DNA of 38,931 nucleotides, from positions 1-38,931 of the IMG/VR virus record IMGVR_UViG_3300007734_000670. The stretch is one strand, 5' to 3'. The notes under the pieces were generated by a model, which did no database searches, was not told where the DNA came from, and saw only the letters and a program-made list of their open reading frames with translations. Shown here piece after piece: positions 24,561 to 29,026 of the stretch. How positions within the stretch are numbered: the stretch's first letter is position 1; every line of letters starts with the position of its first letter. This DNA is from a virus. A program made the position numbers and the translations under genes.

Positions 24561-24898
24561 CAGTCCTCGACGCGCCGGAAGCCTTCGGGCACGTACTCGC
24601 GCTGCCGGCGGACGTGGTAGACGCCCGGCTCGAACATGATCGCCTCGTGCGTGTCGTGCGGGCGCAGATGCTCCAGCGGCGTCGGCGCGTCGACCACCAG
24701 GAACAGGTCCATGATGCTGTCGGGGATGCGGTACTGCTTCACCCGCTCGGCCAGCATCACATGCGAATGCCCGGTTTCGCTGTGGGCGACGATGACACGA
24801 CCATCCTCGGGCGCCACGATCTCGGCGTTCTTCGGCAACGCGTCGATCCGCTTGAAGTAGACATCGCCCTGGGCCGCCACGTTCTTGAAAGTCCTCAT
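24560..24898 (-). CDS. Conserved phage protein with GHSHVM motif
   Basis: The start is ATG 24898, overlapping the HNH stop (ATGA) and preceded by AGAGGAC. The 112-residue product has the pattern NVAAQGDVYFKRIDALPKNA near residue 5, RVIVAHSETGHSHVML near 34, and a C-terminal VYHVRRQREYVPEGFRRVED. I recall this as a conserved phage family of unknown function, with the His-containing motif perhaps binding a metal. It lies in the recombination operon, so involvement in early phage functions is likely. An upstream in-frame extension in the open frame is a shadow of the HNH gene. Confidence 0.7.
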   Translation of the reverse strand: MRTFKNVAAQGDVYFKRIDALPKNAEIVAPEDGRVIVAHSETGHSHVMLAERVKQYRIPDSIMDLFLVVDAPTPLEHLRPHDTHEAIMFEPGVYHVRRQREYVPEGFRRVED

Positions 24899-25377
24899 TG
24901 AACTGTCCTCTCTTGCTCTGGAAACCGAACACCATGCTCGGCCTCCCATCTCGCTCGTGCTGCCACCGCCTTCTCCAGCGATGGCCCGGTGTAAAGATTG
25001 CTCTTCTTGCCGTTCAAATATCCCTGAGCCGTCCAGTAGCCCCGGCTGCGGTCGACGCCGATGCCGCGACGGCCGGTCACGCCGACCGGGAAAGCGCCCG
25101 ACGAGCTGGCGTGGCGTTGGTTCCTTGAGTTGCTGCCGGCCTCCAGGTGGGCGGGATTGCAGCAGATGCGGTTGTTGCAGCGATGCATCACCAGCAGGCC
25201 AAGCGGCACGATCCCGCCGGAAACCTCGAACACGACGACATGGGCGCATCGAGATGTGCAGTCGATGCAGAACCGGGCGTAGCCGTTGGGGAAGGTCGCC
25301 CCGCGCCACGGCCAGCACTCATCCGGCGCGCCCTTGTCGATGCGTGCCCAAACGTCCTCTGGTTTGTTGGCGCGCAT
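24895..25377 (-). CDS. HNH endonuclease
   Basis: A 160-residue nuclease. ATG 25377 overlaps the stop of the preceding gene (TGATG) and is preferred to the longer open frame reaching 25500. The HNH core is clear: CAHVVVFEV with H46, then VMHRCNNRICCNPAHLEAG with H65, N74 and H77, and cysteine pairs that suggest a zinc-stabilised form. C-terminal residues 95-150 have a GIGVDRSRGYWTAQGYLNGK segment that may bind DNA. The gene fits the operon by four-base and one-base overlaps. It could be a free-standing homing endonuclease or serve phage DNA cutting; its gapless fit argues for a long residence. Confidence 0.85.
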   Translation of the reverse strand: MRANKPEDVWARIDKGAPDECWPWRGATFPNGYARFCIDCTSRCAHVVVFEVSGGIVPLGLLVMHRCNNRICCNPAHLEAGSNSRNQRHASSSGAFPVGVTGRRGIGVDRSRGYWTAQGYLNGKKSNLYTGPSLEKAVAARARWEAEHGVRFPEQERTVQ

Positions 25378-26627
25378 CAGGTTCTCACCTCCGGCTTTCC
25401 GAACGTCTTGTCGTCGAGGCCCCAAGTCCACGCCTGCGCTTGCAAGGCAGTTTTCATGTCGGGCGGCACAGGCAACGCAAAGCTGCGCCCCGTCCCGCAA
25501 ACCACCCTGAGGAACCGCTCCTTGCCGACGTCGGGGATGGTGACCTCGACCAGCTCGCCGATCTCAGGTTCGGCGTCCTTGTCGATCGTCTTGGCCTTGA
25601 GTTCGGTCAGCACCGCGTTCCAGCCCAGGATCTCGCAGGCCGACCGGCGCTGCTCGATGTTCTTCCAGGTGAGTGCAGTCTTGGCCGTGAGCGAGGCCTT
25701 GTCCTCGATCCACTCGGCCGGGATGCGCGTGCCGTGCCAGGCGTGGACGCCCCAGCCGTCGGAGAAGGCGATGGCGGCGCCGGTCTCGGAGTGCAGGCGG
25801 CGTTCAGCATCGAAGGACAGCGTCCGCGGCCGGTCGCTGATGATGCAGAGCCCGTCATAGGCCATCCACCACGAGCAGCTTTCGCCGAGCGTGGCCCATG
25901 CCTGGAAAAACTTCCAGACTTCGGGCTCGTACTTCACGCCGATCTTGGCCGCGAAGGTGTGGAAGGCGACCCACGACACGGTGGACTGTCCGCTGAGCAT
26001 CCAGGAGCGGTAGAAGCTGCCCCAGGCGTCGCGCAAATTTTTGCTTACGAGCTGGCTGTCGAGCTGGCTTACGAGCTGGCTGTCGAGCTGGCTGTAGAGC
26101 TGGCTGTCGATCTGGCTGTAGAGCTGGCTGTAGAGCTGTCTTACGAGCTGGCTGTAGAGCTGGCTGTCGAGCTGGCTGTAGAGCTGGCTGTAGAGCTGTC
26201 TTACGAGCTGGCTGTAGAGCTGGCTGTCGATCTGGCTGTCGAGCTGGCTGTCGAGCTGGCTGGAGAGCTGGCTGTAGAGCTGGCTGGAGAGCTGGCTGTA
26301 GAGCTGGCTGTCGATCTGGCTGGAGAGCTGTCTTACGAGCTGGCTGGAGAGCTGGCTGGAGAGATCGATCTTGCTCAGCGGGCCCTTGCGGGCCCCCTTC
26401 GCAAGCTGCCGGATGGCCGCGATCGCCAGCACGCACATCATGGGCGAGCTGAAGCACAGGAACATCGGCGCGGGCTTGCCGAGCTTGTTCTCGTAGATCC
26501 AGGTGATGGCTTCCTTCGCCTTGTCGAAGTCGGCCGGCTGGGTGCTGAGGCCGATTTCACGCCAGTGTTCGCGATGGACGGATAGGTCGGCCTGCTGCTC
26601 GGCCGTGAGCTTGGTGATGCGGGCCAT
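25377..26627 (-). CDS. DUF6745-like protein with 26-unit four-residue tandem repeat
   Basis: A 416-residue protein from ATG 26627 (a GTG at 26630 is also possible), overlapping the RecT stop. Residues 1-88 are a helical lead-in. Residues about 90-193 are 26 units of xSQL, x being Ser, Asp, Tyr or Val, with VRQL and xSQI variants. Residues 195-416 resemble DUF6745: WMLSGQSTVSW, SFDAERRLHSETGAA, FSDGWGVHAWHGTRIPAEWI, then FLRVVCGTGR and FALPVPPDMKTAL. I recall the same kind of short xxQL or xxQV repeats in other members, so repeats may be a family habit. No catalytic residues recognised. Its place beside RecT suggests an early or recombination-linked function, as inference. Confidence 0.8.
   Translation of the reverse strand: MARITKLTAEQQADLSVHREHWREIGLSTQPADFDKAKEAITWIYENKLGKPAPMFLCFSSPMMCVLAIAAIRQLAKGARKGPLSKIDLSSQLSSQLVRQLSSQIDSQLYSQLSSQLYSQLSSQLDSQLDSQIDSQLYSQLVRQLYSQLYSQLDSQLYSQLVRQLYSQLYSQIDSQLYSQLDSQLVSQLDSQLVSKNLRDAWGSFYRSWMLSGQSTVSWVAFHTFAAKIGVKYEPEVWKFFQAWATLGESCSWWMAYDGLCIISDRPRTLSFDAERRLHSETGAAIAFSDGWGVHAWHGTRIPAEWIEDKASLTAKTALTWKNIEQRRSACEILGWNAVLTELKAKTIDKDAEPEIGELVEVTIPDVGKERFLRVVCGTGRSFALPVPPDMKTALQAQAWTWGLDDKTFGKPEVRT
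26049..26360 (-). repeat. Tandem array of 26 twelve-base units
   Basis: The array encodes the xSQL repeats of the DUF6745-like protein. On the minus strand each unit is NNN-AGC-CAG-CTC, with NNN being TCC, GAC, TAC or GTA; a few units end ATC or have AGA as second codon. It includes a higher-order 60-base duplication: bases 26101-26160 and 26161-26220 differ at one position. All units keep frame because 12 is divisible by three. The opposite strand is also free of stops over the array. Confidence 0.95.
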
Positions 26628-27598
26628 CACGCAGCCTCCCTCAGCGCCGCGTGCCGCTCGTCCGCCAGCTTCTCGATCTCCGCGCGCTTCATCGCGCTCA
26701 GCTTCTCGATGCGGTCGGCGTTCTGCTTCAGCACGGCCTCGACATCGACAGGGCGCGGCGCGATCTCAAGCAGGTCCTTGATGCCCTTGATGATCGCCTC
26801 CTGGCCGACGGCCTCGACGCGCCAGTTGACGGCGGTTTCGGCGGCCGGATTCTCGGGCGGCAGGATCTCGCCTTCGGCCGCCGGCGCATCGACAGCCGGG
26901 GTCGCTTCCGGCGCGGGCGCGCCGAGGATGGCCCCGACCTGGCTCGCCGTGGTCGCGCTGCCCTCGCTGGTCACGTCGCGGAAATTGGCGGCGTACTTCG
27001 TGTCGGTAAGCTCGTCCTCGGTCGGCATGCCCATCATCACCTCGGGGCAGTACAGCCGGATCAGCATCGTGGCCGAACGCCAGCGCAGCATGTGCTCGGC
27101 CATGGTCGCGTACTTCGGGTTTTTCAGCCAACCCTCAGCCTTGGCCATCTTCATCGAGACGGAGACCTCGACGTCCTCGCCCTCGATCTCGGCCAGGCGG
27201 CCGCGCGCGGTGACGACCATGGCCTCGCCCTCGCCGGCCGTCTTCCACCGGATCGGCCCCTTGAAGACGCCGCTGCGGTTGGCGCGGGCGATCATGTAGG
27301 ACGCCGACCAGCCGGCCTTGCCCGACACGAAGTAGATGTTTTGCATCACGCTGACAGGGTCCTCGTTCATCCGCTTGGCGATCTGAAGCGCCAGCAGCGC
27401 GTCGGCCCCGTTGTTCTTCTTCAGGTGCGCCGGAATCAGGTCGGACGTGCAGAACACCTTGGCGACGCGCTGCATGTGCTCGAAGCTGTCGCGCGAGGCG
27501 AGAATGTCGACGCTGCCGCCGACGGTGGGCAGGCCGGGCGACGAGCGCAGCGGCGTGACGGTGGCGGTGGGCTTGGTGGATTCGGCTGTGTCGGTCAT
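26627..27598 (-). CDS. recT: RecT-family single-strand annealing recombinase
   Basis: A 323-residue protein that anneals complementary single strands for phage recombination. Residues about 30-215 match the RecT pattern: ADALLALQIAKRMNEDPVSV, FVSGKAGWSASYMIARANRS, and the conserved KNPKYATMAEHMLRWRSATM segment. The remainder is an Ala/Pro/Glu-rich linker and a small C-terminal helix, common in members from alphaproteobacterial phages. Start ATG 27598 overlaps the exonuclease-like stop (ATGA), consistent with a RecE/RecT-type pair. The longer open frame to 27979 is a shadow of the exonuclease gene. Confidence 0.93.
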   Translation of the reverse strand: MTDTAESTKPTATVTPLRSSPGLPTVGGSVDILASRDSFEHMQRVAKVFCTSDLIPAHLKKNNGADALLALQIAKRMNEDPVSVMQNIYFVSGKAGWSASYMIARANRSGVFKGPIRWKTAGEGEAMVVTARGRLAEIEGEDVEVSVSMKMAKAEGWLKNPKYATMAEHMLRWRSATMLIRLYCPEVMMGMPTEDELTDTKYAANFRDVTSEGSATTASQVGAILGAPAPEATPAVDAPAAEGEILPPENPAAETAVNWRVEAVGQEAIIKGIKDLLEIAPRPVDVEAVLKQNADRIEKLSAMKRAEIEKLADERHAALREAA

Positions 27599-28446
27599 AG
27601 CGGGCTCTCCATGTTGGCCAGTGTTCGATCCGCCCATGCGGGCAGCGGGATCGTCTCGACGCCGTCGGCGTATCCCGGCCACCTGTCGGCCGCGATGCAG
27701 TCGGCGAACTTGCGAAGGGCGCGGCGGTAGATCATCCGGCCGCCCTCGAGGAAGTCGTCGGCGAGGACGCGGACGGCGCAGAGGTAGGGCGCGGTCTTCT
27801 CCTGGGTGACAAAGGCGTAGTGCGCGGGCTCGCCCAGCGCCTTCAGGATGTCGACGCAGAGGGCGGCGCTGACGTGGTAACCGAGGTTCCATGCCTGCCG
27901 CTTCCACGGCTCGGCGGCGGCGTCCTTGGTCGTCTTGTAGTTGAGCGCGAGGGCCGGGCGCAGGTAATCTGGCCGGCATTTCAGCCAGATGCCCGTCTCC
28001 GGGTCCTGCCAGATCGCGGTCATCTCAGCGGCGCCCTCGGTGAATGCGTCCATCGCGCCCGGGTTGCTCGCCAGCCCGATCGCCATGCCGGTGATCTTCT
28101 CGAACTCGCGGAAGGTCACGATCTCGCGGCCCTCGTTCTCGGCCTTCCACGCCTTACCCTCCTTGGTGGCGAAGCTCATGTCCTCCGGCTTGACGGCGAA
28201 GCGCTCGACAAATGCCTGCTTGCCTTCGACCAGATAGCAGTGCGCCGCAGTGCCGAACGACTTGGCCTCGGTGTCGTCGTCCTCCTGCGGCCACGGGCTG
28301 AGGTAGTGCCGCGACAGGGCCTTGGCCGGGCAGCTCTCGTGCAGCGTGTAGAGGACGCTGCCGCTGACCGACGGGCCGGGGCAGCAGTTGCCATGATAGT
28401 TCTCCATCGGCACGTTCGCGTGGATGCCGGCGCCGAGCGTGATCAT
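27595..28446 (-). CDS. PD-(D/E)xK exonuclease-like protein (RecE/DUF3799 type)
   Basis: A 283-residue protein, starting at ATG 28446 with GGGAGGGT upstream. The pattern is that of RecE-like nucleases which digest one strand for RecT: a SGSVLYTLHESCPAKA lead, FGTAAHCYLVEGKQAF, then WLKCRPDYLRPALALNYKTT, and RQAWNLGYHVSAALCVD. In active relatives the third region has D-x10-(D/E)xK. Here D160 and K171 are present but position 169 is Asn (codon AAC at 27942-27940), so the (D/E)xK acid is missing. Activity may be reduced or lost, or the acid may be supplied from elsewhere. It pairs with the RecT gene by an ATGA overlap. Confidence 0.85.
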   Translation of the reverse strand: MITLGAGIHANVPMENYHGNCCPGPSVSGSVLYTLHESCPAKALSRHYLSPWPQEDDDTEAKSFGTAAHCYLVEGKQAFVERFAVKPEDMSFATKEGKAWKAENEGREIVTFREFEKITGMAIGLASNPGAMDAFTEGAAEMTAIWQDPETGIWLKCRPDYLRPALALNYKTTKDAAAEPWKRQAWNLGYHVSAALCVDILKALGEPAHYAFVTQEKTAPYLCAVRVLADDFLEGGRMIYRRALRKFADCIAADRWPGYADGVETIPLPAWADRTLANMESPL

Positions 28447-28814
28447 CGTACCCTCCCGCCCACCGCCAACGTGCACTGCAACCGCGCCCCGCTGACGTGA
28501 ACCTTGACCCGCGTGATCATCACCAGGCATTCCTCGCGGGTGTCGTAGGTGGCGAGGACGCGGTGGGTGGCGGAGACCAGGTCGTAATCCTTGCCGACGT
28601 GGAACAGCGTCATGTCCCAGCGGGCGGGCGTTTCGGCGGCGCGGGCGATGGCGATGCCGGCCACGATCAGCAGCGCCGCGGCGACGACAATCCACACGCC
28701 TCGGGGGATGCTGCGGTCGGGCTTGGCGTGCAGGAGCATCAGCGCTTCCGGGTGAATATGGGTGCCGGTGCGCGGATCGTTGGCGCTCTCGGCCTCGGTG
28801 CGTAGTTCGCTCAT
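28443..28814 (-). CDS. Small membrane protein in recombination operon
   Basis: A 123-residue protein with a hydrophilic N-terminus, one membrane helix (about residues 40-58, GVWIVVAAALLIVAGIAIA) and a C-terminal soluble part containing two cysteines (about 96 and 114). Residues 20-35 (HIHPEALMLLHAKPDRSIP) precede the helix. Topology from the charges: N-terminus probably inside, C-terminal domain outside. Both ends overlap neighbours (ATGA). No known family; a membrane-exposed early protein could act in superinfection exclusion or in host takeover, which is inference. Confidence 0.6.
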   Translation of the reverse strand: MSELRTEAESANDPRTGTHIHPEALMLLHAKPDRSIPRGVWIVVAAALLIVAGIAIARAAETPARWDMTLFHVGKDYDLVSATHRVLATYDTREECLVMITRVKVHVSGARLQCTLAVGGRVR

Positions 28815-29026
28815 GCTGCATCGCCTCCTCTGTTCTGCCGGCAGGCCCAGTCGATCGCCGCGGCCTGGTGGGCCAGCAGGACGGCATGCTCGCGGATCGG
28901 CCGCCGGTCGGACTGCACGAGCTGGCGCAGCGTCTCAACGAAGGTCCGGTTGAAGGTGGCCGTGGCGACGGCGCGGCGGGCGGCGAAGATCGCGACCTCT
29001 TCGGCTTGGGCGAGGGTGACGGTCAT
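28811..29026 (-). CDS. Small helical early protein
   Basis: A 71-residue helical protein with ATG 29026, preceded by GGGAGG; it overlaps the upstream stop (TGATG) and the downstream start (ATGA). It contains ATFNRTFVETLRQLVQSDRR in the middle and a C-terminal HQAAAIDWACRQNRGG. No domain recognised. Like its neighbours it belongs to the early leftward operon, and may modulate host or phage proteins. Confidence 0.6.
   Translation of the reverse strand: MTVTLAQAEEVAIFAARRAVATATFNRTFVETLRQLVQSDRRPIREHAVLLAHQAAAIDWACRQNRGGDAA

Follow-up and report, generated by a model that had tools for sequence, protein, structure and literature searches.

Gp54 of mycobacteriophage Tweety contains 48 tetrapeptide repeats in which the first two residues are Ala and the third bases are invariant (PMC2884959). 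Two reviews (PMC9262239, PMC8549241) report that the array tunes counter-defence and that the number of repeats is raised or lowered in Tweety mutants escaping prophage defence (Phrann gp29/gp30, MichelleMyBell); this is the one studied phage protein known to use a tetrapeptide array in this way. As read here, the Tweety array comprises 48 units with a constant GCCGCA, the variable residue x being encoded by GGG in 34, TGG in 11 and CAG in 3 units, and the residue y that follows it by AGC in 38 and TAC in 10. When one pattern is applied and the degenerate end unit is counted, Tweety, DeadP, Taj, KristaRAM and Wee have 49, 39, 31, 17 and 14 units, respectively. WillSterrel has 12 units with x = CGG, GAG, TGG and GGG, which is the palette of the NNG arrays of DUF6745 proteins described below. 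Variable region 2 of bbp36 in Bordetella phage BMP-1 is likewise an in-frame repeat of varying copy number within a phage gene (9–20 copies between isolates) and is dispensable for growth; its 24 bp element, a repeat plus spacer, nevertheless sets it apart by description from a 12 bp tetrapeptide unit (PMC2884959).

The window analysed here is an entire IMG/VR virus record of 38,931 bases, in which one gene encodes a tetrapeptide array joined to a DUF6745 domain. The DNA signature and palettes of Tweety gp54 are found in the DUF6745 proteins, a large, unrelated phage family from many environments. Several features are common to the arrays of the Tweety gp54 family (phrog_3416) and of DUF6745 proteins. 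Both consist of 12 bp tetrapeptide units between conserved N- and C-terminal parts, both keep the third bases constant and draw x from a restricted palette (in the window with GTA as the single exception codon), and in both the number of units varies, between isolates or relatives. Additionally, Tweety gp54, like the DUF6745 repeat gene, is non-structural and lies in the early half of the genome. However, the flanking domains are unrelated and the Tweety backbone is x-y-Ala-Ala. The window protein had no match to phrog_3416 and Tweety gp54 had no Pfam match. Direct homology was rejected, as hhalign of the DUF6745 profile against the Tweety flanks gave probabilities of 0.1–0.3 %. Judged by its sequence, the window protein resembles Tweety gp54 in its array but is not a member of phrog_3416. 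Counter-defence, reported for Tweety gp54 in the same reviews (PMC9262239, PMC8549241), is extended to DUF6745 proteins purely by analogy, since no homology links the two sets of flanks.

The repeat gene and its array

The repeat-protein gene is located at 25377–26630 on the minus strand, stop codon included, as delimited by its ORF and its DUF6745 match. Translation is likely to start at the ATG at 26627, giving 416 aa, whereas a GTG at 26630 would give 417 aa. A Shine–Dalgarno-like GGAGG seen in the sequence (26635–26639, minus strand) lies 7 nt ahead of the ATG, which shares TGATG with the stop of an upstream RecT-like ORF. All parts of the protein are encoded on the minus strand. The conserved N-terminal domain spans approximately residues 2–88 (26367–26627), is modelled with pLDDT 85–98 over residues 1–80 and aligns with both array-bearing and array-less homologues. 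The array occupies residues 91–194 (26049–26360) and is followed by VSKN, a degenerate 27th unit at residues 195–198 (26037–26048). Residues 241–410 (25401–25910) form the DUF6745 domain, with pLDDT 92–97 over most of its length. The match to PF20530 (E=1.9e-28; 99.6 bits against a curated Pfam cut-off of 27) places this part within the family that it had originally been said to resemble.

Tandem Repeats Finder reported positions 26049–26363 with period 12, 26.2 copies and a score of 433, the sole strong array in the window. Unit reading gave 26 exact 12 bp units, in agreement with the original prediction of a 312-base tract of xSQL units with x = Ser, Asp, Tyr or Val. Tyr occurs at x in 9 units, Asp in 8, Ser in 5 and Val in 4. 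Of the two residues claimed to be invariant, Gln is (26/26), but Leu is found in only 23 of 26 units, with Ile in the other 3; Ser also varies, being replaced by Arg in three VRQL units (23/26 and 3/26). Codon usage is nearly constant, with AGC, CAG and CTC in the backbone and TAC, GAC, TCC or GTA at x. The bases at x vary among T, G, C and A, a variation that does not suggest the adenine-only change seen in targets of diversity-generating retroelements. The longest repeated block within the array is 4 units, which is not significant against shuffled order (p=0.18). A pentapeptide-repeat or TALE/PPR-type solenoid was discarded on period, which in the window is exactly 4 residues (12 bases); pentapeptide repeats have a period of 5 residues, and TALE and PPR repeats of about 33–35. 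Two long ORFs in other frames also span the array, at 24885–26585 on the plus strand (566 codons) and 25855–26457 on the minus strand, because the 12 bp unit has no stop codons in those frames. Short tandem repeats of 30 bp and 15 bp, in two to three copies, are present at 294–420 in a different gene.

The upstream ORF, overlapping the repeat gene (26627–27979, minus strand), matches phrog_561 over residues 125–376 (E=2e-55), and the recombinase mentioned originally beside the array is a RecT-like single-strand annealing protein; its match to Pfam RecT (E=0.001) is under that model's cut-off. An exonuclease VIII-like ORF lies at 27595–28938 on the minus strand (phrog_412, E=4.9e-73; Pfam DUF3799 PDDEXK, E=2.9e-21). 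With an integrase gene, a CI-like repressor gene and an HNH gene also nearby, the surroundings resemble a temperate phage's early region. Likewise, several relatives have recombination or replication genes near the DUF6745 gene.

The AlphaFold2 model of the window protein, built on an alignment of 39 sequences, is confident for the N- and C-terminal domains, while most of residues 93–209 are drawn helical with pLDDT of about 40–58. In a Gly-rich relative (L005), whose array is the least helix-friendly, the array is again a helix (pLDDT 42–78). The helix is therefore a weak prediction. It nevertheless agrees with the helix face proposed originally, whereas a solenoid-like stalk is not predicted; at low confidence, neither array is modelled as disordered throughout. 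In an alpha-helix one unit corresponds to 4 x 1.5 = 6 Angstrom and 40 degrees, so that units, if helical, would move the two domains in small steps. A fold search with the whole-protein model gave no PDB match with E<0.001 (best E=0.44), and VIA-align gave no informative similarity to a solved structure (best Z 3.8). Among viral structures, all significant matches were DUF6745 or unnamed proteins.

Variation of the array among relatives

About 90 homologues were collected by IMG/VR scans with the protein and with its alignment, and by searches of phages, plasmids and genomes. About half or more carry a four-residue array at the same junction between N-terminal and DUF6745 parts, ranging from 9 to 70 units, where single counts are uncertain because most come from (short-read) metagenome assemblies, those of isolate genomes (the Tweety group) being firmer. 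The wording of the unit differs by lineage and includes xSQL, xSQV, x[AD]QV, x[GD]QL, xAAT, xSAT, xNAV, xSAV, x[GD]AV, xSSL, x[AD]NL and x[AD]SV. In 21 of the 67 non-redundant rows of the tree there is no array, and the two parts are joined directly. Two such proteins (L034 and L041) fall inside the supported group of eight that contains the window protein (SH-aLRT 95), and L034 is 65 % identical to it. Across the 67 rows, the tree requires at least 19 changes of motif identity and at least 10 of array presence; both counts are rough, since many inner branches are weakly supported.

The C-terminal domain of the window protein recurs in DUF6745 (PF20530) proteins from bacteria and cyanophages. 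The members examined, from Deinococcus, Streptomyces, Mycolicibacterium, Nostoc and Microcystis phage MaMV-DC, carry no array. The domain was found in 2 of 385 genomes of the class that contains a Mesorhizobium genome (G001), that genome itself included. In both plasmids examined, from Deinococcus (L227) and Streptomyces (L228), the array-less DUF6745 gene adjoins an STM4011–STM4015 cluster comprising radical SAM proteins, a hydrolase, STM4014 and STM4015. Nothing relevant came from literature searches on DUF6745 or on the repeat strings.

Gain and loss of whole units is evident between near-identical phages. Two phages from different metagenome samples (L028 and L030) align over 9,215 bases with 0 mismatches and one 12-base gap, which is within the array. 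In a second pair (L102/L105), 900 upstream bases are identical and the difference is a perfect five-unit tandem copy that includes a rare DRQL unit. Near-identical flanks surround differing arrays in L002/L003 and L036/L046, and in L107/L110 the flanks are 93–99 % alike by stretch while the arrays are reordered and of unequal length. Two further pairs (L047/L067 and L142/L151) have no array difference over the readable part. Long block duplications are significant in some relatives only (L003, L004, L008, L026 and L047). These differences in unit number come from DUF6745 relatives, the window having no near-identical relative among the sequences compared. Neither the number nor the order of units is fixed among homologues; the fixed arrays that would have spoken against the original prediction were thus not found.

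Differences between units are concentrated at few bases. Averaged over 41 arrays, the fraction of units off the array consensus is 0.494 at the first and 0.264 at the second base of x, 0.172 at the second base of y, and at most 0.033 at each of the other nine bases. Variation is therefore limited almost entirely to x, about half of the arrays also varying at y; most unit differences alter an amino acid and third bases are almost constant. Bases outside x are homogenized within an array and differ between lineages. Counted as distinct alleles per site, non-synonymous exceeds synonymous change only twofold (0.493 versus 0.265), the strong contrast being in the number of differing units.

Two x palettes are apparent. 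Nineteen arrays use x = NNG (Trp/Gly/Arg/Glu), with TGG in 19, GGG in 18, AGG in 13 or CGG in 5, and GAG in 9. Another 19 use x = NNC (Asp/Tyr/Arg/Gly/Ser), with GAC in 19, TAC in 18, CGC in 15, GGC in 8 and AGC in 4. Of 40 arrays, 39 have aromatic residues at x and 36 have Arg/Lys there, whereas Val makes up 6 of 1010 x residues. Homogenization alone could explain the constant third bases. However, the recurrence of the same classes (aromatic, Arg, acidic, Gly/Ser) over differing backbones, together with the near-absence of Val and Ala, one base from Gly, argues for selection on x. Unit order is near random, with no enrichment of identical neighbours (270 observed versus 295 expected), and opposite charges at x are only slightly enriched at i,i+4 (z 1.5 and 2.3).

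An array at a fixed place is also present in another phage family (L188:5335–6141, plus strand; L185:3203–4012, plus strand; an L156 ORF at 2138, minus strand; and probably L193). Its units read xAQV/xDQV, its flanks are YNPYQATK-like on the N-terminal side and YWAVK...GKxGKxLGEYD on the C-terminal side, and no convincing Pfam match was found for it. The family matches the DUF6745 profile through the array only, as the alignment of L188 shows.

Possible roles of the array

The reading favoured here, held tentatively and at a little under even confidence, is that the array, placed in an early phage protein between two folded domains that are conserved, is a fast-evolving tuner of length and surface and most likely serves counter-defence. 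The array would form an extended helix-like rod, adding ~6 Angstrom and ~40 degrees per unit if alpha-helical. Gain, loss and shuffling of units would then alter the distance and orientation of the N-terminal domain relative to the DUF6745 domain, as well as the side-chain pattern along the rod. In this way the protein would probably adjust its binding to a partner that itself changes quickly, most likely a defence complex of the host or of a prophage, as has been reported for Tweety gp54. Unequal recombination or slippage is the probable source of unit turnover; that the phage's own annealing recombinase helps in this is speculation.

Tuning is suggested by the whole units gained or lost in two pairs of relatives (L028/L030 and L102/L105) and the array differences in three more (L002/L003, L036/L046 and L107/L110), by off-consensus bases almost confined to x and the second base of y with recurring palettes, and by array-less homologues that join the two parts directly, a helix being drawn in both models. 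It is also suggested by recombination or replication genes that neighbour the repeat gene, both in the window and in several relatives, and by Tweety gp54, which has the same array signature and whose repeat number is reported to tune counter-defence (PMC9262239, PMC8549241). Against tuning, no defence partner was found and DUF6745 is a domain without known function; confidence in the helix is low and counts from short-read assemblies are uncertain. Additionally, the array-less homologues are two-domain proteins that exist without tuning.

The original prediction was of a recognition surface that changes by unit choice, in which the row of x residues would read a ligand, be it protein, nucleic acid or glycan, with specificity set by the order and choice of units and not by length. 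The variable number and order of units agree with this, as do the near-random order, in which identical neighbours are not enriched, and the restriction of x to aromatic, Arg, acidic and Gly/Ser residues in successive lineages over different backbones. However, there is no visible code and no known ligand, and exposure of x on one face of a helix is only predicted. The Tweety precedent points at least equally to length, as its escape mutants are reported with altered repeat number (PMC9262239). The original prediction is partly supported, in that variability is strong, but a recognition surface is considered unlikely to be the main role.

It is likewise improbable that the array is a neutral low-complexity linker, expanding and shrinking by slippage or recombination, with units of no specific function. 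Whole-unit gain and loss, array-less relatives, the low model confidence of the array and the capacity of recent homogenization alone to yield constant third bases would all fit such a linker. A period of exactly four residues, an x palette that recurs over independently worded arrays and the scarcity of Val would not, and single-unit slippage should enrich identical neighbours, an enrichment that is not seen. Least likely is an oligomerization or scaffold rod, in which helices pack zipper-like and the DUF6745 domain does the work: the exact period of four, the small residue that many arrays have at every fourth position, the helix in both models and weak matches of the Tweety array to models of FliH (which carries GxxxG repeats), far below curated cut-offs, are in its favour, but roughly half of the y residues in [AD]QV arrays are Asp, which breaks the small-residue face, and hypervariability is hard to reconcile with a fixed scaffold.

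With the signature in common with Tweety gp54, the DUF6745 family gains a concrete, testable hypothesis, and the DNA signature could be used to find other fast-tuning phage proteins. The array also raises the structural question of the role of a period-four helix with a row of Gly/Arg/Trp/Glu or Asp/Tyr/Arg/Gly/Ser. A broader proposal, possible although rather doubtful, is that at least three unrelated families of phage proteins (DUF6745, Tweety gp54 and L188/L185) have acquired a portable x-y-z-w tetrapeptide module. The module would act against bacterial immunity as a binding surface and an evolvable ruler, with recombination of 12 bp units shifting its specificity much faster than point mutation could.

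Arrays in genome assemblies

The array regions of two relatives (L076 and L018) are each one long ORF in which the 12 bp unit is read in successive different frames (GSSR..., LKSG..., then xAQV; GPGV..., then xDQV). This suggests frameshifting indels within the arrays, or assembly errors. Many contigs terminate inside an array, as expected where reads fail to bridge the array or disagree. Two IMG/VR contigs, 3300003665_000008 (L130/L142) and 3300030606_000009 (L132/L143), have both ends inside an array, as if circular or permuted genomes had been opened at that point during assembly. Arrays of this kind may systematically break up phage genomes.
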